A stretch of DNA of 64,000 bases from Variovorax sp. PBL-H6. Its GTDB lineage: Bacteria; Pseudomonadota; Gammaproteobacteria; Burkholderiales; Burkholderiaceae_C. Location of the stretch: NCBI RefSeq assembly GCF_901827155.1, contig NZ_LR594659.1:1674001-1738000 (forward strand), given 5' to 3'. Shown here one piece after another: positions 14,111 through 32,833 of this stretch (within the stretch, counting starts at the first letter, position 1; each line of letters opens with the position of its first letter). The translations under genes and the position numbers were made by a program. The notes below the pieces were generated by a model. It did not search any database. It saw only the letters and a program-made list of their open reading frames with translations, and was not told the DNA's origin.

Positions 14111-14642
14111 GCACTGCGCCTGCGGTTCTGCGCCCGCGAAGACGACATGATTCCATCCCCCGACCGTTCGTCGATCGCAAGAGCCTGCCGAAGGACAACC
14201 ACGCTAAGGTGCTAGTTTTCTGCCCCACGAGCATGTATAGGCGGCGAGCATGGTAGTGGGATGAGCACCGTCCTGGCCGCCCTCGCAGCGGTGGTGCTGG
14301 CCATGGCCGCGCTGGGGCTGCGTAGCTGCCTTTGAAAATGATCATGTCCAGGCGCCGCCGCTTCCTTTCGATGGCGCCTTGCGGCGTCCGTAGTGGTCAG
14401 CGATGCTGCGTTGTCGTCGCGCCGGATTCGGCCTGAGCTGCTTTCAAAGTGCTGCGCACGCTCTTCAAATCGCGTATCTTGCCGATCCGAACTTTTCGAG
14501 CCACGCGAGCCCGGCCTGGCACCGAAGCTGCGCTGGCGTGAGCCGTGCGCGTCTTCGGCGCCGCGAGGCTGCACCTTGGTTAGTGCACACACGCCCATGT
14601 TGTCCGAAATCCAGTTCAACACCCCAAGATTGGGCGGAGCGA

Positions 14643-14680
14643 CGAACGGCCGGTTGTGGCCGCATGCTGTCGAACTGCCG
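14643..14680 (+). repeat. dispersed TGGCCG-core intergenic repeat
   Basis: The copy reads CGAACGGCCGGTTGTGGCCG then CATGCTGTCGAAC. The acyl-CoA synthetase fragment starts within its right end. Confidence 0.5.
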
Positions 14681-14833
14681 GTCGCCTATGTGCAACTCCG
14701 GCCCGGCGTTCACGCGACGGAGGACGAACTTCTGTCCTTCGCCAGGGAGCAGATCACCGAGCGCGCAGCGATGCCGAAGGCGATCAGGCTGGTCGCGACC
14801 ATGCCCCTGACCGGCGTCGGGAAGATCTTCCAC
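14672..14833 (+). pseudogene. AMP-binding acyl-CoA synthetase C-terminal fragment
   Basis: Fifty-four codons encode a stretch typical of the C-terminal subdomain of ANL-family acyl-CoA synthetases. PVAYVQLRPG is followed by ATEDELLSFAREQI, the PKAIRLVATMPLTGVGKIF strand-loop and the catalytic lysine context. Nothing of the large N-terminal domain (usually about 400 residues) precedes it. The frame has no proper start, so it is a gene relic, perhaps of the same catabolic island as the adjacent thiolase cluster. Confidence 0.65.
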
Positions 14834-15056
14834 GGCGGCCGGCAGCGCGGGCGCCGGCATCGCGCGTGAGGTTCTGGGCCAGTTCCCATTCCGCTTCCAC
14901 GTCTCGTGGGCAAGCAGCGATGAAGGATGTCACTGAAGATGCTGCCTGTGCTGGCCCACCGATTCGCAAGAAAAAGTACGACCAGCCCTCAAGGGCCAAC
15001 GTCGGGATTACTTCGCGCTGACCCAAGCCAGCACATCGATGTTGCGGCACTTACGC

Positions 15057-16253
15057 TCATGCGCGCTCGAACACCGCTGCGATCCCCTGACCGCCGCCGA
15101 TGCACATGGTTTCAAGGCCGTAGCGCCCGCCGCGTCGGCGCAACTCGTGCAGCAGCGTGCACATCATGCGAACGCCGGTGGCGCCGATCGGATGGCCGAG
15201 CGAGATGCCTGAGCCATTCACGTTGAGCCGTGCCTGGTCGTCCCAGTGCCAGCCCTTGAGCACGGCGAGCACCTGACACGCGAAGGCTTCGTTCAGTTCG
15301 ACCAGGTCCATGTCATCGAGCGACATCCCGAGCCGCTCCATCAGCCGATTCACCGCCGGGACGGGACCGATGCCCATGCGTGAGGGCTCGCAGCCAGCGG
15401 CGGCCCATCCCACCAGGCGGCCGATCGGCGCGAGCCCCAAGCGGGCGAGCTGATCCTCGCCGACCACCAGGCACGCACAAGCCGCGTCGTTCTGTTGGCT
15501 GGCATTGCCTGCGGTGACCGTACCGCCCTTGATCAGCGGCCTGAGCCTGGCCAGGATTTCCATCGAGGTGTCGGCCCGAAAGCCCTCGTCGCGTGCGAAG
15601 GTGACGGGATCGCCTTTGCGCTGCGGCACCGACACTGGAACGATTTCGTCGGCGAAACGGCCCGCTTCCCAAGCAGCTGCTGCACGCTGATGGCTCTGTA
15701 CGGCATAGGCATCGGCGCGCTCCCGCGTGATGTCATAGTCGCGAGCGAGATTTTCCGCGGTGTCGATCATTCCCGGGATCACACCGAATCTCTCGGCCGG
15801 TTGCGAGCGTTCCCTGCCACGCTCGAGCCGGTCGTGCATGCGCACCGAGCCCGCGCGTGCTCCCCACCGCATGTCGGTGGTGTAGTACTCGATGTTGCTC
15901 ATGCTCTCCACGCCGCCGGCCAAAACCACATCCGCCGCGCCACTCTGGATCATCATCGCGGCGGTGGCGATCGCCTGCAGGCCCCCGCCGCAACGGCGAT
16001 CGAGCTGCATGCCGGGCACCTCGAGCGGAAGACCGGCTTGCAGCGCCACCCAACGCCCGACGCAGGGGGTCTCGCTGTTGGCGTAGGACTGGGCGAATAC
16101 GGCGTCGTCGATGCGCTGCGGATCGACGCCGCTGCGCCCGATCACCTCGCGCACCACGGTGGCGGCGAGTTCTTCCACCGGAACCGTGCGCAGGCTGCCG
16201 CCGAAGGTGCCGACGGGGGTACGCAAGGGATTGACGATAAAGGCTTGTCTCAT
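15057..16253 (-). CDS. acetyl-CoA acetyltransferase (thiolase)
   Basis: The 398-residue thiolase carries the acylated cysteine in [11 protein letters not shown] (Cys88 from the chosen start), the GHPIGATG histidine motif and the C-terminal [10 protein letters not shown] with the second catalytic cysteine. A NEAF motif ([11 protein letters not shown]) is also present. It should cleave 3-ketoacyl-CoA or condense acetyl-CoA. ATG 16253 has AAGGA upstream; the ORF extends six codons further. It is last in a leftward operon after a CoA-transferase (41-base gap) and an SDR. Together they suggest beta-oxidation-like breakdown of a carboxylic acid. Confidence 0.93.
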
Positions 16254-16294
16254 GGTCCTTGTCCTGTCCAAAGAAGAGCGAAAGCTGGACGCGC

Positions 16295-17611
16295 TCAGCG
16301 CCAGCCGAGGCTTCGCGCGGCTTGATGGCCTTCTTGCTCTAGGCGCGCGCGGTGCGAGGGGTGCGCGATGTCGATCATTCGTCGCATGCGTGCAGCCAGC
16401 GGGGCGCCGCGCAGGTCGGCAACGCCGTACTCGGTGACGAAGACGCCTGCGTCGCAGCGAGGCGTGCTCACCGGCCCCGAAAGCCGGGCGACGATGCGAC
16501 TGTGAGCACCGGCGGTCGAAGGCAATGCCACCACGGGTACGCCCCCGCGACTGCGCTGCGCGCCCCGCAGGAAATCCACTGCACCTCCAACGGCGCCCAC
16601 GTAGGAGCCGGCGGCGACCTCCGAGTTGACCTGACCCGTCAGGTCGACCTCGACCGCGGAGTTGATCGCAGCGAGCCGGGAGAGAGACGCCAGCACCTCG
16701 GGGTGATGCGTGTACTCGGTGCCGCGCAACTGCAGTGCAGGGTTGTTGTGCGCATATCGATGCAGCCGTGTGCCGCCCAGCAGAACGCCGGCGATGCTGG
16801 TCCCGGTGTCACGTCCCTTGCGCGCGTTGGTCACCGCGCCGGCTTCGATCAATTCGACGACGGCGTCGCCCACCGCGCCGGAGTGGATGCCCAAATCGCG
16901 CCGGCCCCGCAGCGCGCCGAGCACTGCTTCGGGAATCGCTCCAAGTCCGCATTGCAGCGTCGCGCCATCCTCCACCAGCGCCGCGACGTGGGCAGCGATG
17001 GCCCGTTCCCGGTCACCGACCTGGGTCGCGGGCACGGGCGACGGCGGATACGACGCCTCGACCCGCAAATCGATTTCTTCAGGCTGCAGCAGGCGATCGC
17101 CGCAGGTCCACGGCATCTGCGCATTGACTTCGGCGATCACGACGCGGGCGATGTCCAATGCGGCGAGCAGGTACTCGTGCGCCAGGCCGAGGCTGTGGCG
17201 GCCCTGTTCGTCGGCGGGCGGCACCTGCAGCAGGAGGACGTCGATGCGCAGCGCGCCGCTGCGGATGAACGCCGGCAGGTCGGAATAGTGGCAGGGCAGG
17301 ATCTCGAGCACTCCGGCGTCGGCGATACGCCGGTTGGTGCCGCTGCCACAGTAGCCGATGAAATCGATCGCATCGGCGTGCTGCGCGTCGAGCAGGCCCG
17401 TCAGCCCGATGCCAAGAAACGCCCGGGTGCGCGCAAAGTCGTGGCGCTGCTCCGCGTAGGCCCGCACCAGAGTTGCCGGCTCGGCGCTGGCCTGGCCCCA
17501 CATCAGGGTGTCGCCGGCGCGAATCCACCGGGCAAGGTCTAGCGTTGCGGCGGCCGGGAGCGATGGCGCCGCGCCCGGTCGCGCGACGCCTTGGGTCAGA
17601 TCGGATCCCAT
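16295..17611 (-). CDS. acetyl-CoA hydrolase/CoA-transferase family protein
   Basis: The 438-residue protein resembles the 4-hydroxybutyrate/butyrate-acetoacetate-type CoA-transferases of the acetyl-CoA hydrolase group. It has an N-terminal Rossmann-like half with FIGYCGSGTNRR and DVLLLQVPPAD, a middle LQCGLGAIPEAVL, and a C-terminal half with VDLTGQVNSEVAAG, YVGAVGGAVDFLRGA and FVTEYGVADLRG. It would move CoA between acyl groups, activating the substrate acid without ATP. ATG 17611 overlaps the SDR stop by 16 bases, implying translational coupling. The much longer open frame upstream (to 18163) is antisense-like noise over the SDR gene. Confidence 0.88.
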   Translation of the reverse strand: MGSDLTQGVARPGAAPSLPAAATLDLARWIRAGDTLMWGQASAEPATLVRAYAEQRHDFARTRAFLGIGLTGLLDAQHADAIDFIGYCGSGTNRRIADAGVLEILPCHYSDLPAFIRSGALRIDVLLLQVPPADEQGRHSLGLAHEYLLAALDIARVVIAEVNAQMPWTCGDRLLQPEEIDLRVEASYPPSPVPATQVGDRERAIAAHVAALVEDGATLQCGLGAIPEAVLGALRGRRDLGIHSGAVGDAVVELIEAGAVTNARKGRDTGTSIAGVLLGGTRLHRYAHNNPALQLRGTEYTHHPEVLASLSRLAAINSAVEVDLTGQVNSEVAAGSYVGAVGGAVDFLRGAQRSRGGVPVVALPSTAGAHSRIVARLSGPVSTPRCDAGVFVTEYGVADLRGAPLAARMRRMIDIAHPSHRARLEQEGHQAARSLGWR

Positions 17612-18495
17612 GTGAAGACGTCTGCCGAACGATCCATCGACACGAACGCCGATCGCAGTGCCGGAATACCGTGCTCGGCCAAGGTCTTGGCCGTCCAGCC
17701 TTCCTGGCGGTGGACGGATCGTAGCGGGCGCGGCTGGCTCATGAGGAACACCTCGTTGTTGCGAACGGTAAAGACCTGGGCATTCACTTCGGCGGCGGCG
17801 TCGCTGAGCAGATAGACAGTCAACGGGGCGATCTTGGCGGGAGTCATCTGCTTGAACTTCTCCACGCGGGCAACCTGGTCGGGGGTATCCGTGGGGATCG
17901 AACTCGTCATGGCCGTCCAGGCGAACGGCGCAATGCAGTTGGAACGCACGTGGAACTTCTGCATGTCGAGCGCAATGCTCTTCGAGAGGGCGGTGATCCC
18001 CATCTTCGCCGCGTTGTAGTTGGCCTGGCCGAGGTTGCCGATCAGGCCGGAGGTCGAGGTCATGTGCACGAACGCGCCGCTGCCCTGTTCCTTGAAATGG
18101 TTGGCTGCCGCACGGCTGACGTAGTAGGTGCCGTAGAGATGCACCCTGATGACGGCATCCCACTCGTCGGCACCCATCTTGTGGAAGAAGCGGTCCCGCA
18201 GGATGCCCGCGTTGTTGATCACGCCGTCGAGGCGGCCGAAGTGCTCGACCGCGCCGTCGACGATGCGCTGGGCCTCGGCCGGATCGGCCACGCTGCCGAG
18301 GCTTGCCAGCGCCTCTCCCCCTTCGTTGCGGATCTCCTCGACGACGCCGTGCGCCGCGTCGCCCGTGTCGTTGACCATCACCCGAGCGCCTTCACGTGCC
18401 AGTCCGAGCGCGAGATCCCGCCCGATGCCGGCACCGGCTCCGGTGACCAGCACCACCTTGTCTTGCACCATGTTGCTGCCTGTCGCATTTGTCAT
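17596..18495 (-). CDS. short-chain dehydrogenase (3-hydroxyacyl-CoA dehydrogenase-like)
   Basis: The 299-residue SDR has the cofactor motif TGAGAGIG near residue 19, NNAG (in VINNAGILRD), the serine strand HMTSTSG and catalytic YNAAK. The N-terminal half resembles the dehydrogenase unit of peroxisomal multifunctional enzyme type 2 (LRDRFFHKMGADEWDAVIRVHLYGTYYVS). That enzyme oxidises 3-hydroxyacyl-CoA with NAD. The start at 18495 has AGGACA upstream. It is first gene of the leftward operon with the CoA-transferase and thiolase, consistent with a beta-oxidation step. Confidence 0.9.
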   Translation of the reverse strand: MTNATGSNMVQDKVVLVTGAGAGIGRDLALGLAREGARVMVNDTGDAAHGVVEEIRNEGGEALASLGSVADPAEAQRIVDGAVEHFGRLDGVINNAGILRDRFFHKMGADEWDAVIRVHLYGTYYVSRAAANHFKEQGSGAFVHMTSTSGLIGNLGQANYNAAKMGITALSKSIALDMQKFHVRSNCIAPFAWTAMTSSIPTDTPDQVARVEKFKQMTPAKIAPLTVYLLSDAAAEVNAQVFTVRNNEVFLMSQPRPLRSVHRQEGWTAKTLAEHGIPALRSAFVSMDRSADVFTWDPI

Positions 18496-18607
18496 TTCTG
18501 TGTCCTGGATCGAGTGGAAGGGGGTTCTGCTCAGCACGAGCGCGGCATTCCGGGGACGTGCTCGGCCACGTCGCTCGGGATGAGGTCGGTGGAGAGGGGC
18601 GCGACCT

Positions 18608-18765: not shown

Positions 18766-19791
18766 ATGTTCGCAAGAAAGCGCTTGAAGTTCGGCCCGGC
18801 GTGCACTCGAAGGCGCTGGTTCAAGGCCCTGGCCGCCGGCATTGCCTTGCCGCTTGTGCTGGGTGCTTCCGGCTCCGTGGGGGCGACCGCATTCCCGGAC
18901 AAGCCGATCAGGCTGATCGTCCCGTACAACCCCGGCGGCATCACCGACAGCCTCGCACGCCGCCTGGCCGAATTGATGCGACAGGACTTGCAGCAGCCGG
19001 TCATCGTCGAGAACAAGCCGGGGGGCAATACTGCGCTGGGTGCGCGCGCCGTCGCTTCCGCCGCGCCCGACGGGTACACCGTGCTCTTCGCGACCGGCGC
19101 TACCGCTGTGCTGAACCCGCTGCTCTATCCCAAGCTTTCCTACAACCCCGATAAGGAACTGCTCCCCGTGGCGCGTGTAGCGATCACGCCAATGGTCATG
19201 GTGGTGGGCCCCAACTCGACGTACCGTGCCCTGCGGGAGTTTGTCGTCGATGCCAAGGCCAATCCCGGAAAGTTCAACTACGCATCCACGGGCACCGGCA
19301 GCTCGCTGCACCTGGCAGTTGAGCTGCTGCAGAGCGAGACTGGTATTTCCCTCGTGCACGTGCCTTTCAACGGCAGCGCGCCCGCGCAGTCGGCGCTGAT
19401 GGGTGGGGACGTGCAGTTCTTCGCCGATGCGGCGGGCAGTTCGATGGCGCTGGTGCAGGGCGGCAGGCTGCGTGCCCTGGCAGTGACCAGCCGCGAGCGC
19501 CTTCCGGCCTTGCCCGAGGTTCCGACCGTGGCTGAAAGCGGCTATCCGAACGTCGAAGTCACGACCTGGTTCGGGCTGATGCTGCCGCGAAACGCACCCG
19601 CTGATGTAGCGAACCGGCTCAACGTCTCGGCGGCGCGTGCAATTGCCGACCCGAGCTTCCGTCAGCAATTCGAGGCGCTTGGTCTGGTCGTGCCTCCGGC
19701 CATGACACAGGCCGAGTTCGTTCGATACATCGGCAAGGAGCGCGAGCGCTGGGCGCCTCTGATCCGAGCCAAGAACATCGTCCTCGAATAG
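18766..19791 (+). CDS. Bug/TctC-family tripartite tricarboxylate transporter receptor
   Basis: The 341-residue periplasmic binding protein has a twin-arginine-like export signal (TRRRWFKALAAGIALPLVLG, cleavage near the GATA segment). The Bug fold shows FPDKPIRLIVPYNPGGITD, VENKPGGNTALGARAVASA, then YASTGTGSSLH, HVPFNG and LPEVPTVAESGYP. Such receptors bind a carboxylate and normally feed TctA/TctB membrane proteins, none of which are nearby. AGGAG precedes ATG 18766 at good spacing. It heads the rightward operon of acyl-CoA enzymes, so it probably captures or senses the acid they degrade. Confidence 0.93.
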   Translation: MFARKRLKFGPACTRRRWFKALAAGIALPLVLGASGSVGATAFPDKPIRLIVPYNPGGITDSLARRLAELMRQDLQQPVIVENKPGGNTALGARAVASAAPDGYTVLFATGATAVLNPLLYPKLSYNPDKELLPVARVAITPMVMVVGPNSTYRALREFVVDAKANPGKFNYASTGTGSSLHLAVELLQSETGISLVHVPFNGSAPAQSALMGGDVQFFADAAGSSMALVQGGRLRALAVTSRERLPALPEVPTVAESGYPNVEVTTWFGLMLPRNAPADVANRLNVSAARAIADPSFRQQFEALGLVVPPAMTQAEFVRYIGKERERWAPLIRAKNIVLE

Positions 19792-19822: not shown

Positions 19823-20731
19823 ATGTTCGAAGCCAATCTCTTGCGCGGCAAACGCATCCTTGTCACCGGCGGAGGCTCCGGCCTGGGCCGCGAAATCGCC
19901 GAACGCTACCTTCAGCTTGGCGCAGAGGTCCATATCTGCGGGCGCCGCCAGTCGATCATTGATACGGCCGCCGCGGAACTGACGGCGCGCCATGGCGGGC
20001 TGGTGCGCTCTCACGCGGTCGACATCCGGGAAGCCGATTCGGTCGACGCGATGATCGAGCGCATCTGGGCCGAACACGGCCCGCTTGACGGCCTGGTCAA
20101 CAACGCCGCGGGCAACTTTGTGAGTCGCACGCAGGACGTATCGCCGCGTGGTTTTGACGCGGTAGCCAATACCGTGCTCCACGGCACCTACTACGTCACT
20201 CACCACGTGGGGCGGCGCTGGATCGCTGGCGGCCATAGGGGCTCGATTGTCTCCATCGTCGTGACTTGGGTGCGTACGGGCGCGCCTTTCGTCGTGCCCT
20301 CGGCCATGAGCAAGGCCGGCGTCGAAGTGATGACGAGATCGCTAGCGATCGAGTGGGGCCGCTACGGTATCCGGCTGAATGCCATCGCGCCTGGCATCTT
20401 TCCGACTGAAGGCGCCAACAGCCGCCTCAGCCCGAAGGCGGCCTGGGAGGACGGCGTCGTGCGGAATCCGATGAATCGGCTGGGACGCATGTCCGAGCTG
20501 CAGAACCTGGCAGTTTTCCTCATGGCCGATGGCGTCGAGTGGATCAATGGCGAGACCATCGCGATCGACGGTGCCGGCCATCGCCAGAACGGTGCCTCCT
20601 TCACCGAGTTGGCCGAGCTCGACGACAACGCCTGGCGCGAGATGCGCGAGGCGATCCGCAGCCAGGACCAGCGCGACAGGTCGCTGCGCGCCGCGCCCGA
20701 CGCCGCACCTTTTTCTGGCACCGACTGGTGA
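19823..20731 (+). CDS. SDR oxidoreductase resembling 2,4-dienoyl-CoA reductase
   Basis: The 302-residue SDR has TGGGSGLG (residues 15-22), NNAAGNF and a C-terminal segment close to mammalian-type 2,4-dienoyl-CoA reductases: VVPSAMSKAGVEVMTRSLAIEWG followed by RLNAIAPG and a GANSRLSP loop. As in that family the usual YxxxK tyrosine position holds serine (SAMSK), so catalysis relies on other residues. It would use NADPH to reduce a dienoyl-CoA, handling unsaturated acyl chains. It follows the solute receptor by 31 bases and its stop overlaps a 34-codon relic frame (ATGA). Confidence 0.88.
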   Translation: MFEANLLRGKRILVTGGGSGLGREIAERYLQLGAEVHICGRRQSIIDTAAAELTARHGGLVRSHAVDIREADSVDAMIERIWAEHGPLDGLVNNAAGNFVSRTQDVSPRGFDAVANTVLHGTYYVTHHVGRRWIAGGHRGSIVSIVVTWVRTGAPFVVPSAMSKAGVEVMTRSLAIEWGRYGIRLNAIAPGIFPTEGANSRLSPKAAWEDGVVRNPMNRLGRMSELQNLAVFLMADGVEWINGETIAIDGAGHRQNGASFTELAELDDNAWREMREAIRSQDQRDRSLRAAPDAAPFSGTDW

Positions 20732-20835
20732 TGGCCCCGCCGCTCAAGCCGGCGGAGTTCGATGCCTTCATCGGCCGCGAGCGCGCACTGTGGGGCCCCC
20801 CTCTGATCAAGGCCAAGAACATTCACATCGAGTAG
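20731..20835 (+). pseudogene. Bug-family receptor C-terminal remnant
   Basis: The 34-residue frame (PAEFDAFIGRERALWGPPLI then KAKNIHIE) closely resembles the last residues of the intact receptor upstream (QAEFVRYIGKERERWAPLIR then AKNIVLE). It starts at an ATG overlapping the SDR stop and ends six bases before the ligase start. It therefore looks like the 3' end of a second, tandem receptor gene that has been deleted. Whether the peptide is made is unknown. Confidence 0.75.
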
Positions 20836-20841
20836 GAACTC

Positions 20842-23835
20842 ATGAAAATCGATCGCATCGTGGAGGAGGTGGTTGCGCTTGGGCGGGGGGCCGAGGCGGC
20901 CCTGGCGCTGGAGGATGGGCGCACGCTTTCTTATGCCGAGCTGGCGGGGCGCATTGGCGCCGCGGCCCAAGAATTGACCGGCGCCGGCTTGGCGCCTGGC
21001 CAGCGAATGGTGCTGCTAGGCGAGAACAGTGAGGACATGGTCGTGGCCCTGATGGCAGCGATCCGTGCCGGCGCGTGGGCGGTACCGCTCAACGCCCGCA
21101 TGTCGGCCGGGGAAGTAGACGCGATCTGCGCGCACTGCGAGCCGCGCCTGGTCTACTTCGCGGCGGAGGCCTCGGCCGATGCGCGCGCTCACGCCGAGCG
21201 GCGGGGGGCGCAGGGCACGCGGGAGGCCCTTCCCGGCGGCCGCCTGCAGACGTTCGAGGGTGCGGGCACGGCAGCCGAGGCCAGCGGTGACGGTGATCCG
21301 GACGATGTCGCCCTCATGATCTACACCTCGGGCAGCACCGGCATGCCCAAGGGGGTCATGCTGACGCATGCCAACCTCGACTTCGTGACGCGCGTGGCCA
21401 GGCAGCAGGAAGTGCTGATGCCCGGCGACGTCGTCTTTCACGCCCTGCCGATCTCGCACTCCTTCGGCCTGATCACCGTGCTGCTGTGCGGCCTGCGCGC
21501 GGGCGCTACGTTGCGCCTGGTCGATCGCTTTTCGGCCGAGAAGTTGGGCAATGCCATTGCCGACGGCACCGTCACAGTGTTCCCGGGCGTGCCGGCGATG
21601 TACGCACGGCTGCACGAGTGGGCCCAGCACAATGGCAGGACGCTCACGCCGAACCGGATGCGGATGGCTTACATCGGCGGTTCCCTGATCGATGCTTCTC
21701 GGAAGGCTCAGTCTGAGGCCTTGCTCGGACTGCGCCTGCACCATGGCTACGGCCTCACAGAATCGGCTCCCTCCGCGACGCGCACGTTCGGCCACCCGCC
21801 ACCGAAGGACATCACGGCGGGCTGGCCGATCCCCGGCGTCGAGGTGGTACTGATGGACGCGGATGGAACGCCTGTCGCCGATGGCGAGCGCGGCGAAGTC
21901 TGCATCCGAGGCCCCAACGTGATGCGAGGCTATTTCCGGGATCCCGAGCAGACGCGCGCCGCGATCGATGCCGAGGGCTGGCTGCACACGGGCGACGTGG
22001 GTCTCTTCGGGTCCGAGGGCGATCTCTCCATCGTGGGCCGCAGCAAGGAGATGATCATCCGCGGCGGCTTCAATGTGTACCCGGCCGAGGTCGAGAAGGC
22101 GATCGCCGGATTTCCCCACGTGGCGCAGTGCGCGGTTGTCGGGCGCAGCGTACCGGGCGATGAAGAAATCGTCGCCTACGTTGAGCCGGAGCAGGGCCAC
22201 ATCGTCGACCTGGCGCGACTGCGCGCATTCCTGCGCGAAAGGCTCGCGCCCTACAAGGTGCCGGCCGAGGTGCACACGATGGCGCAGCTGCCGGCCACCG
22301 GTACCGGCAAGCTTCTGAAAGCGAAGCTGAAAGCACTGGCCAACGAAGCGCCGGCGCGAGCGCGACCATCGCTCGACGGTCTGTTGGCACCCCGTTCGGT
22401 CGCGGTCGTGGGCGCGTCCGACAACCCGAACAAGGTTGGCGGCCGACCGATCAAGTACCTGAAGGAGCAGGGCTTCGCCGGTCGGATCTATCCGGTCAAT
22501 CCCCGCGCCGACAGGGTGCAGGGCCTGCCCGCCTATGCGGCGCTCGATCGGCTGCCGCAGGTGCCGGACGCGGTGATCCTGTGCATCGGTGCCGAGCAGG
22601 CGGAACAACAGTTGAATGAATGCGTGCGCCTGGGCGTGCGCCATGCGCTGCTGTTCGCATCGGGGTATGCCGAGGTCGGCGCCGAGGGCCGGGTACGTCA
22701 GGAGCGTCTGGCCGAGATCTGCCGCGCTGGCGGCCTCCGCTTGGTAGGGCCCAACAGCATCGGTGTCGCCAGTTTCGACACCGGCGCGGTGCTGTCTTTT
22801 GCCTCGATCTACACCGACCACGTCCCGCAGGATGGTCCGGTGGCGATCGTCTCCCAAAGCGGGGCTTTCGGTGTGGCCGCGTATGCCTTGCTGCGCGAAG
22901 CCGGCTGTGGCGTGCGCTGCGTGGCGGCCACCGGCAACGAGGCCGATGTCGACACGGCGGATCTGATCGAGGCGCTGGTGCAGCGGGCGGGGCTGCGCCT
23001 GATTCTGCTTTATCTGGAGAACGTGCCGGATCGCGCGCGCATGGCCGCGGCGCTCGACGCCGCCCGGCAGCGTGGCGTGGCGATGCTCGCGGTGCGTTCG
23101 GGGCGTTCCGATCACGGAAGCCGCTCTGCAGATCTCCACACCGGTTCGTTCGGGGCGGGCGGCGCTGAGCTCGATGCACTGTTCGACGCGCATGGCTGCC
23201 GCGCATTTCCCGGCTTGGTGGAATTGGTGGCGAGCGTTCCGCTCTATCTTGCACCGATGCCCTGCCGTGCTTCTGCAGGCCGTGCACCTCGGCTGGCACT
23301 TGTCAGCAATTCGGGCGCCTCCTGCGTGCTCGCAGCCGATGAGGCGGAGGCGAGCGACCTGCCGCTCGCACGTCTGTCGGCCGAATCCGAACGGCAGTTG
23401 GATGAGTTGTTGCCGGACTTCTCGCTGAACCGGAATCCCGTTGACCTGACGGCCATGCTTCTGACCAGCCCGGCGCTGCTGGGTGACGTGATGCAGGTCG
23501 TGCTGCGCGACGAGGCGGTGGACGCTGCCGCATTGGGCCTGCTGGCGGTGGGTGGGCCCAGCTACGACGTGCCACGCTTCGTGCGCGAGTGCCGGACCGC
23601 GATGGAAGCCACCGCCAAGCCGGTGATTGTCTACAGCCCGCATGCCCATGTGCGCGAAGCCTTCGCGCTGGGCGGCTTTGCCGTCTTCACCGGAGAGGCG
23701 CAGGCTATGCAAGCACTCCGGGGCTTCGCCGCACACTGTGTCGGCTCGGTGCCTCGAGCGCTCTCCACTGCCCCGTCGAGCACCTCTCCAGCCTCACGTT
23801 CAGTTGACCCGATGGAGGAGCCGACCCATGCGTGA
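20842..23835 (+). CDS. fusion of AMP-forming acyl-CoA ligase and NDP-forming acyl-CoA synthetase alpha module
   Basis: This 997-residue protein joins two unrelated CoA-ligase types. Residues 1-505 are an ANL-family acyl-CoA ligase: [11 protein letters not shown] (~161-171), YGLTES (~303), GWLHTGD (~380), [16 protein letters not shown] and the catalytic lysine loop [12 protein letters not shown] (~485-493). Residues 511-960 are the alpha part of ADP-forming acetyl-CoA synthetases: CoA-binding [15 protein letters not shown], a SQSGAFG motif (~671) and ADLHTGS with His766 at the phosphohistidine-like position. The ATP-grasp beta module is absent. It may activate the cluster's substrate; the role of the second half is unclear. 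Its stop overlaps the thiolase start by eight bases. Confidence 0.88.
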
Positions 23836-25018
23836 TGCAGCCATTGTTTCCTATGCCCGTACCCCCATCGGCAAAGCCTTCCGGGGAACCCTCAATCTCA
23901 CGCACGGTGGAACACTCGGCGCGCACGTGGTGCGCCACGCCGTCGCGCGCGCCGGCGTGGCGCCGGACGAGATCGAGGATGTGATTCTCGGATGCGCCTT
24001 TCCGGAGGGTGCCAACGGCTTCAACATCGGCCGCATCGCTGCGCTCGCGGCCGGGCTGCCGGAAAGTGTCCCGGGCATGACCGTCAACCGCTACTGCTCG
24101 TCGGGGCTTCAGAGCATCGCAATTGCGGCCCAGGCCGTTCGCGCCGGCGGGCTGCAACTGGCGGTGGCCGGCGGGACCGAATCTGTCAGTTGCGTGCGCG
24201 AACACACCAACAAATTCATGCGTGAGGAGCCATGGCTCACGGCCCATGCGCCGCAGGTCTACATGCCGATGCTCGACACGGCAGAAGTCGTGCAACGACG
24301 CTATGGAATCTCGCGCGAGCGTCAGGACGAATACGCCGCCTTGAGTCAGCTGCGCTATGCCCAGGCGCAAGCGAACGGCTACTTCAACGAAGAGATCGTG
24401 CCTGTCGTGACGACCGCGCGCCGCCAGGATCGCGATGGCAGCACGCGGGATGAAGTCGCCGAACTCGGGAGGGACGAAGGTCCGCGTGCCGGCACGAGCG
24501 CCGCGACGCTGGCGGGACTGAAGTCGGTGCTCGAAGGTGGGACGGTGACGGCGGGCAATGCAAGCCAGCTGTCGGACGGCGCGGCCGCCTGCGTGGTGAT
24601 GGACGCGGACCTGGCCGCCCGGCGCGGCCTGCCGACGCTGGGCTGGTTCCGCGGCTTCGCGGTCGCCGGCTGCGCGCCCGACGAAATGGGCATCGGTCCC
24701 GTCTTCGCTGTGCCGAAGCTGCTTCGGCAGGCGGGACTGACGGTGGACGACATCGGCCTCTGGGAACTCAATGAGGCCTTCGCGGTGCAGGTGCTCTATT
24801 GCGCGGATCGGCTCGGAATTCCACAGGATCGCTTGAATGTCAACGGCGGTGCCATCACGATCGGGCATCCTTTCGGCATGTCGGGCGCGCGCATGACCGG
24901 CCACGCGCTCCAGGAGGGGCGGCGCAGAGGGGTGAAGTACGTCGTGGTCACGATGTGCATCGGCGGCGGCATGGGCGCCGCGGGCTTGTTCGAGGTCGCG
25001 GGGGTTGGTGGGCCGTAA
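23828..25018 (+). CDS. acetyl-CoA acyltransferase (thiolase)
   Basis: The 396-residue thiolase carries the reactive cysteine in [13 protein letters not shown] (Cys90), NEAF ([12 protein letters not shown]), the GHPFGMSG histidine motif and TMCIGGGMG with the second cysteine. It probably performs the final thiolytic cleavage releasing acetyl-CoA. ATG 23828 is set by a GGAGGAG ribosome site inside the previous gene and an eight-base overlap with that gene's stop. It is a different subfamily from the thiolase in the leftward arm, so two cleavage steps or two chain lengths are possible. Confidence 0.93.
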
Positions 25019-25120: not shown

Positions 25121-25735
25121 ATGACCGCCAAAGCCCAAAAAAGTGCATACCACCACGGCAATCTTCGCGAGGAATTGCTGGCTCAGGGCTTGGCGATCGT
25201 CGAGCGGGACGGACTTGGCAGCCTCACCATGCGCGAGCTCGCGAAACGCGTGGGGGTGACACAGACTGCGCCGCTTCACCATTTCGAGACCAAGGCAGCG
25301 CTCTTGGCAGCAATCGCTGCCCAGGGCTTTCGAATGCTTTTCGATCACCGCATCGCAGCGCTGAAGGACAAGCGCTCGCCTGGTGAGCGGTTGATGGCAG
25401 TGTTGATGGCCTACGTGGAATTCGCACTGGCGCATCCAGCGCTGTATCAACTGATGCATGGCCCGGAGATCCCTGACAAGACGCTGTTCCCGGAACTCAA
25501 CGACGCTGCGACACGCTCGTACAGCCTGCTCGAATCCGCAGTCGCGGACTATCTTCTCGAGAGCCAGGGCTCGATGGAGAGCAGTCGCGACGCGACGCTC
25601 GCTGCTTGGACCGTGTGCCAGGGACTCGCGACCGTTCTCATCAACCCGCAAAACACCCCGCGCTACGTGCTTCGCAAGGATCCGTTGGGGGTCTCGCGGC
25701 GGGTTTTCGAGATGTTTGTGAGAGCTATTGATTGA
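25121..25735 (+). CDS. TetR/AcrR-family transcriptional regulator (WHG domain)
   Basis: The 204-residue repressor has an N-terminal helix-turn-helix (YHHGNLREELLAQGLAIVER, then LTMRELAKRVGVTQTAPLHHF, residues ~9-55). The ligand domain is of the TetR-C WHG type (PGERLMAVLMAYVEFALAHPALYQLMHG). It lies 102 bases after the thiolase on the same strand and is the natural candidate to control the divergent acyl-CoA operons, perhaps through the palindrome near 18.6 kb and an acyl-CoA ligand. The target is inferred. Confidence 0.9.
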   Translation: MTAKAQKSAYHHGNLREELLAQGLAIVERDGLGSLTMRELAKRVGVTQTAPLHHFETKAALLAAIAAQGFRMLFDHRIAALKDKRSPGERLMAVLMAYVEFALAHPALYQLMHGPEIPDKTLFPELNDAATRSYSLLESAVADYLLESQGSMESSRDATLAAWTVCQGLATVLINPQNTPRYVLRKDPLGVSRRVFEMFVRAID

Positions 25736-30556: not shown

Positions 30557-32833
30557 ATGATCAACCGTCTGGTGGAAGCGACTCAGCCTGCAGATGTTCA
30601 GGAGACCACGTTCGCGATCGACGTCCTCGGGCGATACATCTGCAGCACTTGGGACGAGGCAACGGCGAATGGCGGCGTCGCCTTTGACGCGGTGGTGATC
30701 GGGGCGGGCATGTTCGGAGGCTATTGCGCGGAGAAGATCTATCGCGCCGGGCCCAACCTTCGTGTGCTCGTGCTTGACGCGGGCAGCCTGCTGGTGACGG
30801 AGCACGTTCAGAACCTCTCCCGAATCGGCTTGAACGCCGCCGGTCCGAAGAAGGATCCGACCAAGACGTTCGACGTCCCCGTCATCCTGAACGCCGACGA
30901 CCCCGGCACGCGCGAGCGCGTCTGGGGCATCCCGATGCGCAGCATGGTCCCCATCGCCGGCCTGGCCTATTGCCTGGGTGGCCGGTCCCTTTATTGGGGC
31001 GGGTGGTCGCCGCGACTGACCGACGCGGATCTGAGCCAGTGGCCGCAGCCCATCGCCTCGTGGCTTCAGAGTCCTACGCAAGCCGGTGATGCCTATGAGC
31101 GCGTCGAGAAGGAGATCGGGGTGTTCGACACGACCGACTACATCTCCGGTCCGCTGTTTGACGAGCTATTTCAGAAGTTCGGAAGCCTGGTCGGTACTGT
31201 GCCCAGCGTGGATGCCGTCGAAGAGGCGCCGCTCGCGGTGCAAGCCGCCCCGCCGGCCTCTGGCCTGTTCAGCTTCGACAAGTGGAGCAGCATGCCGATA
31301 CTGACCGACGCGGTGCGCGAAGCCGCCGGCCGGCCCGATTGGCAGCGGCGCCTTTTCATCGTACCGAGGGCACAGGTCACCCGGCTGCAGACGAGTAACG
31401 GCGCGGTGACAGGGATCGAGGCTCGCGTGAATGGAGAGCAAAAAGTTCTGGCGATCCAGCCTAGCTGCGCGGTGGTGCTCGCCTCGAGCACCATCGAGGC
31501 CACGCGGCTGGCACTCAACTCCTTTCCCACCCCGCTCATGGGGCGAAATCTCACGTCCCACCTGCGCACGAACACGGTCGTGCGCGTCCACCGCTCGGCA
31601 CTCGATCCGGCCTTGCCGCAGCGCTTGGAAGCGGCTGCGCTGCTGGTGCGTGGCTCGACGCCAGCTGGCCGCTATCACCTGCAGGTGACCGCAGCGGCGG
31701 GCCCGGGCGGGTCGGAGGACGTGATGTGGCGCATGATTCCGGACATCGACTTGCTCGATCGGACGCTTGCCGCGCAAAAGGAAGACTGGATCGTCATCAC
31801 CTTGCGCGGCATCGGCGAGATCGCGGGCGACCGCGACCCCAACGCCAACAAACTGACCGGCCAGCCGCCCAGCTGGATGGACCTGAGCGATCAGACGGAC
31901 ACGTTCGGCACGCCCCGGGCATGGGTCAATCTGGTCACGACGCAGGCGGACGATGCGCTGTGGGACACCATGGACAAGGCCGCCCTGGATCTCGCCAAGG
32001 CCCTGGCCAACAACGACCCGACGAAAATAAAAATCGTCTCGCACACACGCGACGGGCTCGGGACGACGCACCATGAGGCAGGGACTCTCTGGATGGGAGC
32101 GAGCGCGAGCGATTCGGTGACGAATCTCGATGGCCGCTTTCATCACGTCGCCAACGCCTACGTGGCGGGTCCCGCGCTCTTCCCTTCGCTCGGCTCAGCC
32201 AACCCTGCGCTCACGGGAATTGCGCTCGCGCGCCGCTGTGCTGAAGCCATCGCGCGGGAAAGTCTGCGGACTGAGCCAGGGTTTGCGCCGCTCGGCATGG
32301 GCGGCATCGATGGCTGGAAGATGGCGGGCCTGGGCGGGTTTGTCGAATTGGGCGGCAACATCATCGAATCTGCAGGCGGGACGGGCCTGCTTTGGTTCAC
32401 GGGCAAGCAGTTCCAGAATTTCGTTCTTCGTGTCGACTGGCGTGCCTTCGCGCAGGCGGACAACTCCGGGGTCTTCATCCGCTTTCCCGACCCCGGAAAC
32501 GACTGGACGATCCCGGTGACACAAGGCTACGAGATCCAGATCGACAACGCCGGCATGAACCCCGACGCGACCCCACCGGCCTTTGGAGATCCACTGCACA
32601 ACACAGGCGCCATCTACCAGCTCGCCGGGTCGACGGCGGCGCCGGCAATCGGTCAGTGGCACAGCTTCGAGATCGAGGCGAGTGGATCAACGATCACGGT
32701 CCGCCTGAATGGCCAGCAGGTGAGCCAACTGCAGAACGCGAGCCGCTCGCCGAAAGGCTTCATCGGCTTGCAGAACCACAACCCGAATTCACGTGTGCAG
32801 TTCACCCGGCTGCGGATCAAAGAATTGCCTTGA
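30557..32833 (+). CDS. GMC oxidoreductase fused to C-terminal DUF1080 domain
   Basis: Residues 1-580 of this 758-residue protein form a GMC-family FAD oxidoreductase. They include the dinucleotide motif VVIGAGMFGGYCAE (~44-57), SSTIEATRLALNS, the active-site region THHEAGTLWMGAS (His ~505) and the C-terminal NPALTGIALARR. A link (FAPLGMGGIDG) leads to a DUF1080 domain (PF06439, ~585-758): GGTGLLWFTGKQFQNFVLRV then DNSGVFIRFPDP, GYEIQIDN, GAIYQL, WHSFEIEASG and RSPKGFIGLQNH. DUF1080 proteins act on 3-keto-glycosides, so the pair could oxidise a sugar and cleave it. No signal peptide was seen. The coupling is inferred. Confidence 0.9.
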   Translation: MINRLVEATQPADVQETTFAIDVLGRYICSTWDEATANGGVAFDAVVIGAGMFGGYCAEKIYRAGPNLRVLVLDAGSLLVTEHVQNLSRIGLNAAGPKKDPTKTFDVPVILNADDPGTRERVWGIPMRSMVPIAGLAYCLGGRSLYWGGWSPRLTDADLSQWPQPIASWLQSPTQAGDAYERVEKEIGVFDTTDYISGPLFDELFQKFGSLVGTVPSVDAVEEAPLAVQAAPPASGLFSFDKWSSMPILTDAVREAAGRPDWQRRLFIVPRAQVTRLQTSNGAVTGIEARVNGEQKVLAIQPSCAVVLASSTIEATRLALNSFPTPLMGRNLTSHLRTNTVVRVHRSALDPALPQRLEAAALLVRGSTPAGRYHLQVTAAAGPGGSEDVMWRMIPDIDLLDRTLAAQKEDWIVITLRGIGEIAGDRDPNANKLTGQPPSWMDLSDQTDTFGTPRAWVNLVTTQADDALWDTMDKAALDLAKALANNDPTKIKIVSHTRDGLGTTHHEAGTLWMGASASDSVTNLDGRFHHVANAYVAGPALFPSLGSANPALTGIALARRCAEAIARESLRTEPGFAPLGMGGIDGWKMAGLGGFVELGGNIIESAGGTGLLWFTGKQFQNFVLRVDWRAFAQADNSGVFIRFPDPGNDWTIPVTQGYEIQIDNAGMNPDATPPAFGDPLHNTGAIYQLAGSTAAPAIGQWHSFEIEASGSTITVRLNGQQVSQLQNASRSPKGFIGLQNHNPNSRVQFTRLRIKELP

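Follow-up and report, generated by a model that had tools for sequence, protein, structure and literature searches.

The AMP-forming and ADP-forming routes from an acid to its coenzyme A (CoA) thioester are textbook alternatives. In ADP-forming enzymes, as described in PMC11494057, a swinging loop moves a phosphohistidine ~30 Å between the CoA site and the ATP-grasp unit. Here we analyze a gene of Variovorax sp. PBL-H6 that joins modules of both kinds. It occupies positions 20842–23835 (+) of a 64,000-nucleotide stretch of contig NZ_LR594659.1 (the window, to which all coordinates refer unless another locus is named). This single gene encodes a 997-aa protein made of an ANL (AMP-forming) ligase followed by the whole alpha unit of an ADP/NDP-forming acyl-CoA synthetase, and a domain search finds no ATP-grasp (beta) unit within it. 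An initial annotation, made from the sequence alone, had proposed just this union of an ANL ligase with an NDP-forming alpha and had remarked on the missing ATP-grasp module; the domain make-up bears it out on both counts.

The ligase part, residues ~1–500 (20842–22341, +), contains AMP-binding and AMP-binding_C domains. Ligase motifs are present at residue 162, 302 (GYGLTE), 379 (GWLHTGD) and 487 (GTGKLLK), the last containing the C-terminal lysine, Lys490, and from these motifs the ligase half looks competent for acid:CoA ligation. A linker (22342–22374, +) joins it to the alpha part, residues 512–961 (22375–23724, +), which is complete: the CoA-binding, flavodoxin-like and third (ligase-CoA) subdomains are all present. 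Because a fold search with the full-length structure model returned only ANL structures among the listed matches, the alpha half was predicted and searched separately.

The fusion is found in seven of 101 Variovorax genomes, PBL-H6 included, with each half 66–79% identical to the PBL-H6 copy. Since six further genomes hold the same full-length protein in the same domain order, an assembly or sequencing error joining two genes, a concern raised by the initial annotation, is rejected. What that annotation missed is that the same two proteins are encoded by overlapping separate genes in four other genomes (G916, G1051, G1242 and G1224), found by sampling 399 genomes from the same family. In all four, the alpha gene lies directly downstream of the ANL gene, whose stop codon overlaps the alpha start by 4 bp in a different frame (ATGA in three, GTGA in one), and this overlap maps to the linker of the fusion. 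The split-form alphas are 64–67% identical to the PBL-H6 alpha over their length and have no ATP-grasp; their ANL partners are 64–73% identical to the PBL-H6 ligase half. Thirteen ANL orthologues at 66% identity or above were recovered, eight from the 101 Variovorax genomes and five more from the 399 family genomes. Seven of these are fused to the alpha, four have it adjoining and two have none nearby, therefore the ligase evidently can do without its partner. All 11 alphas sit beside (four) or inside (seven) an orthologue of the PBL-H6 ANL. The alpha goes with its own ligase, and the ligase can occur without the alpha.

Among the matches listed for 399 family genomes (E ≤ 1e-55), 399 order genomes and 398 phylum genomes (E ≤ 1e-42), a junction-spanning protein appears only in PBL-H6 itself; these samples took five scored candidates per genome (22 in the Variovorax sample), and more distant fusions may be missed. 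Plasmid records with a match at 1e-60 numbered 66, none with one place covering 80% of the query. In a contig scan, only L042 (Variovorax sp. Root318D1) among the best 80 of 202 relatives covers both halves as one protein; L044, from the same 80, has its ANL and a full ADP-forming enzyme as separate proteins. Another neighbourhood of both ligase types is seen in eight rhizobia-related records (L045, L047, L049, L050, L052, L055, L056 and L067), where a full ADP-forming enzyme is followed ~2 kb downstream by a same-strand ANL gene that is 27–30% identical to the PBL-H6 ANL.

The 11 alphas without a beta unit form one clade (support 100/100). Its branch is long, at 1.01 changes per column, and adjoins ordinary full-length enzymes; the beta-less state of these alphas has a single origin. 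No ATP-grasp partner gene was found beside any of the 11 in the loci searched. ATP-grasp lies directly downstream at 97 of the 99 other alpha places in the loci retrieved, and the two places without it are L088, at a contig end, and L117, from a Proteobacteria metagenome bin. The L117 protein (L117:7983–9395, +) is a lone alpha of 470 aa, ~30% identical to the orphan clade, in which the His is kept, and is a second, separate beta-less alpha. No ATP-grasp was found on its 12.7 kb, and a distant ANL gene (23%) lies ~2.3 kb upstream.

Because overlapping split genes occur in four genomes, the partnership is older than the fusion, and the fused gene is the end state of an older two-gene arrangement. 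The simplest reading is a single ATP-grasp loss that preceded fusion. The ATP-grasp was probably lost first, the orphan alpha then became the operon partner of the ligase, and gene fusion came last. How many times the genes fused is less clear-cut. The alpha tree groups the seven fused forms weakly (80/49), and the ANL trees do not group them, with approximately unbiased (AU) test p values of 0.0555 (18 rows) and 0.043 (22 rows; a single fused clade is marginally rejected). In the tree of the neighbouring short-chain dehydrogenase/reductase (SDR), an unfused plasmid locus falls among the fused loci. The genes may have fused once, with the alpha later lost or exchanged, or they may have fused more than once.

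Purifying selection acts on the alpha, which is not decaying. Over 21 pairs of fused genes, the median ratio of nonsynonymous to synonymous substitution rates (dN/dS) is 0.17 for the ANL part and 0.12, 0.14 and 0.16 for the alpha subdomains, values that are rough given the high dS of the most distant pairs (1.3–1.5, PBL-H6 versus G029). The linker is at 0.38 (17 of 21 pairs finite), and the last 30 residues are nearly free of constraint at 0.53 (17 finite pairs). Among 102 ordinary alphas, 69 alpha positions are conserved in 85% or more of the sequences. All 11 orphans retain 48 of these, and 191 alpha positions are invariant across the 11 orphan sequences. Glu726, His766, Thr767 and the SQSG and GN motifs are unchanged in every one. 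By alignment, His766 (codon 23137–23139) corresponds to the phosphorylatable His of the swinging loop, the identity that the initial annotation had given it.

Nine otherwise conserved positions are lost in most orphans: 609, 687, 747, 752, 762, 770, 774, 788 and 813. Three of these fall in the equivalent of the swinging loop, residues 756–776 (23107–23169, +), whose limits were transferred from S246–I266 of 8WZU via H256 (PMC11494057). The loop sequence is not conserved; position 762 is changed in ten of the 11, 770 in all 11 and 774 in nine. Losses amount to three of seven conserved positions in the loop versus six of 62 elsewhere (one-sided Fisher p 0.042). For residues 745–790, a range picked after looking, they amount to six of 12 versus three of 57 (p 0.0005). 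That the His is kept while the loop around it has been rewritten suggests that the shuttle is gone, yet that some local role still requires the His.

We tentatively favor a reading, short of a probable one, in which local His-dependent chemistry at the CoA site lets the alpha handle the ligase's CoA thioester in the absence of ATP. The ANL half would make acyl-CoA from acid, ATP and CoA via the usual adenylate route. The orphan alpha, which would descend from an ADP-forming synthetase after loss of the ATP-grasp part and is encoded by an overlapping gene in some relatives and fused in Variovorax, would handle the same thioester, ATP-free, at the CoA/acyl/phosphate site (site I). It would thus bind the ligase's own product, and His766 would act locally instead of travelling to an ATP-grasp site. 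Candidate local reactions are reversible acyl-phosphate or phosphohistidine chemistry, or thioester hydrolysis as quality control. The split-form alpha of G916 also bears a C-terminal MaoC dehydratase domain (65.1 bits), and we count this hydratase-type domain, a further acyl-CoA-handling partner, in favor. The initial annotation's suggestion that the alpha might handle CoA or regulate the ligase is supported as a general idea only.

Several points weigh against ATP-free handling of the thioester. To our knowledge, no reaction has been described for a lone alpha that has the His but no ATP-grasp. The enrichment of losses in the loop is weak when judged on the range set in advance, and the kept His and Glu could be structural. 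No alpha lies near the ANL gene on the V. paradoxus VAI-C plasmid (CP063168) or in G1052, within the 18 and 19 kb read. The full-length structure model has a predicted template-modelling score (pTM) of 0.61 and does not fix the relative orientation of the two halves. Moreover, PMC11494057 describes an ADP-forming site assembled across a dimer, and our structure model is of a single chain. A conserved partnership of an AMP-forming ligase with an ATP-less half of an ADP-forming one asks what an alpha unit can do without ATP, and fused, split and alpha-free natural versions exist for testing the alpha's role.

It is possible, if somewhat doubtful, that the alpha is instead a non-catalytic acyl-CoA sensor or oligomerization module that tunes the ligase, by analogy with the inactive ADP-forming domain that tunes the acetyltransferase in Pat/PatZ. 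The Pat domains, however, are described in PMC8556138 as inactive for want of the catalytic His, which is kept in all 11 orphan alphas, and this weakens the sensor reading. We are more doubtful of a hybrid module in which the ligase makes the thioester and the alpha uses its conserved His, together with phosphate, to convert or sense it. Phosphorolysis to acyl-phosphate would be an example, with phospho-His766 as a readout of the acyl-CoA/phosphate state. In such a module, if true, an alpha unit would work without an ATP-grasp partner, and the two acid-activation routes would be joined by a direct chemical link.

The alpha might also have become an enzyme that processes the CoA thioester made by the ligase (a lyase, hydratase or isomerase), much as DddX acts at the equivalent site after making the CoA thioester of dimethylsulfoniopropionate (DMSP), but we consider this unlikely. 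In a gappy stretch of the alignment, Tyr stands opposite the catalytic Glu432 of DddX and Thr opposite its Trp391, and no candidate general base was identified. As aligned, the mismatch rules out the DddX lyase reaction itself and leaves room for a different one.

Very unlikely, in our judgement, is that the alpha is still half of an ADP-forming ligase, with an ATP-grasp subunit borrowed in trans and both routes open to the protein. In archaeal enzymes (ACD1; PMC8163506) the alpha and beta units form distinct subunits, and site I is well kept in the orphan alphas. However, the swinging-loop residues are changed in all 11, and no separate partner for the fusion was found among the strong matches in the PBL-H6 genome, the one genome covered by the trans search: each of the nine strong ATP-grasp_5 matches shares its open frame with another alpha. 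The weaker ATP-grasp matches there are a SucCD-like pair plus two more, in open frames of 767 and 1135 aa. The separate ATP-grasp partner for which the initial annotation had left room was thus found neither among the strong matches there nor beside the 11 alphas. Least credible is that the fusion is a functionless passenger, either degenerating or accidental: two ligase orthologues have no alpha and the fused C-terminal tail is unconstrained, but the alpha's dN/dS is as low as the ligase's, its invariant positions are many, and split and fused forms coexist within one clade. The low dN/dS and strong residue conservation likewise lead us to reject the dead remnant that the initial annotation had considered for all homologues.

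The setting of the fusion gene is an acyl-CoA degradation pathway. Directly upstream is an SDR resembling 2,4-dienoyl-CoA reductase (19823–20731, +), present in 12 of 13 compared loci, a count that, like those that follow, includes the PBL-H6 locus. It is preceded by a gene for a TctC/Bug-type substrate-binding protein (18766–19791, +; Pfam TctC, 244.7 bits), found upstream in 11 of 13. Downstream, the start of a thiolase gene (23828–25018, +) overlaps the end of the fusion gene, an arrangement with thiolase directly downstream in five of 13 loci, and a TetR-type regulator (25121–25735, +) is nearby in 12 of 13. The opposite arm (15057–18537, −) encodes a thiolase (15057–16271, −), a CoA-transferase of the acetyl-CoA hydrolase/transferase type (16295–17590, −) and a FabG-like SDR (17596–18537, −). 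Among the six other fusion loci, only that of G029 (L040) shares this trio as a block. At other loci the neighbours also include acyl-CoA dehydrogenases, type III CoA-transferases and thiolase-partner OB-fold proteins. The initial annotation had counted three ways of making the same thioester in this cluster, and this is not supported. We know of no way for an alpha without ATP-grasp to make a thioester from ATP, the strong ATP-grasp_5 matches of the genome belong to the frames of other alphas, and the CoA-transferase gene was found in only one of the six other fusion loci (L040).

Three further features of the window deserve mention. Between the SDR and the fusion gene, 20731–20835 (+) is a short 3′-end remnant of a second TctC-type gene, the translation of which resembles the end of the intact TctC-type gene at 18766–19791. 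Beside a K+ transporter gene, 14393–14869 (+) encodes a fragment of an ANL C-terminus (AMP-binding_C positions 26–76 only, 31.7 bits) and is probably a pseudogene remnant. A single open reading frame at 30557–32833 (+) encodes GMC oxidoreductase domains and, after them, a 3-keto-disaccharide hydrolase domain.

With regard to known systems, the nearest alpha units are all of the ADP/NDP-forming acyl-CoA synthetase (ACD) kind: the alpha of ckcACD1 (4xyl/4xym), PH0766 (2csu) and Nmar_0206 (8wzu). Unlike these, the fusion has no beta/ATP-grasp in cis or adjoining, its loop residues are changed, and it is paired with an AMP-forming ligase. The ANL half shares the whole ligase fold and motifs with the malonyl-CoA synthetase MatB (4fuq, 4gxq) and the Amycolatopsis feruloyl-CoA synthetase (8weu, 8wev), but is only 30–34% identical to them by structure alignment and bears a C-terminal alpha. 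DddX, an ATP-dependent DMSP lyase (7cm9), shows the same alpha-type fold engaged in acyl-CoA chemistry beyond ligation; it retains ATP-grasp together with Glu432 and Trp391, whereas in the fusion alpha these two residues, which lie in a gappy stretch, are not conserved. Pat/PatZ, type I/II GNAT proteins (9it0, 9isq) that carry an inactive ADP-forming synthetase domain, resemble the fusion in joining an ADP-forming-type CoA-binding unit to a different enzyme. The partner in Pat is a GNAT rather than an ANL ligase, and the catalytic His, described as missing in Pat (PMC8556138), is kept in the fusion, which has no ATP-grasp. A general answer to what the alpha does would also be relevant to CoA sensing by ADP-forming domains, as in Pat. 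Full-text searches of an open-access library yielded no paper describing such a fusion or a beta-less alpha of this kind. Taken together, both modules are of known kinds, and as far as we have searched, what is new is their combination and an ATP-grasp-free alpha clade that partners an AMP-forming ligase.
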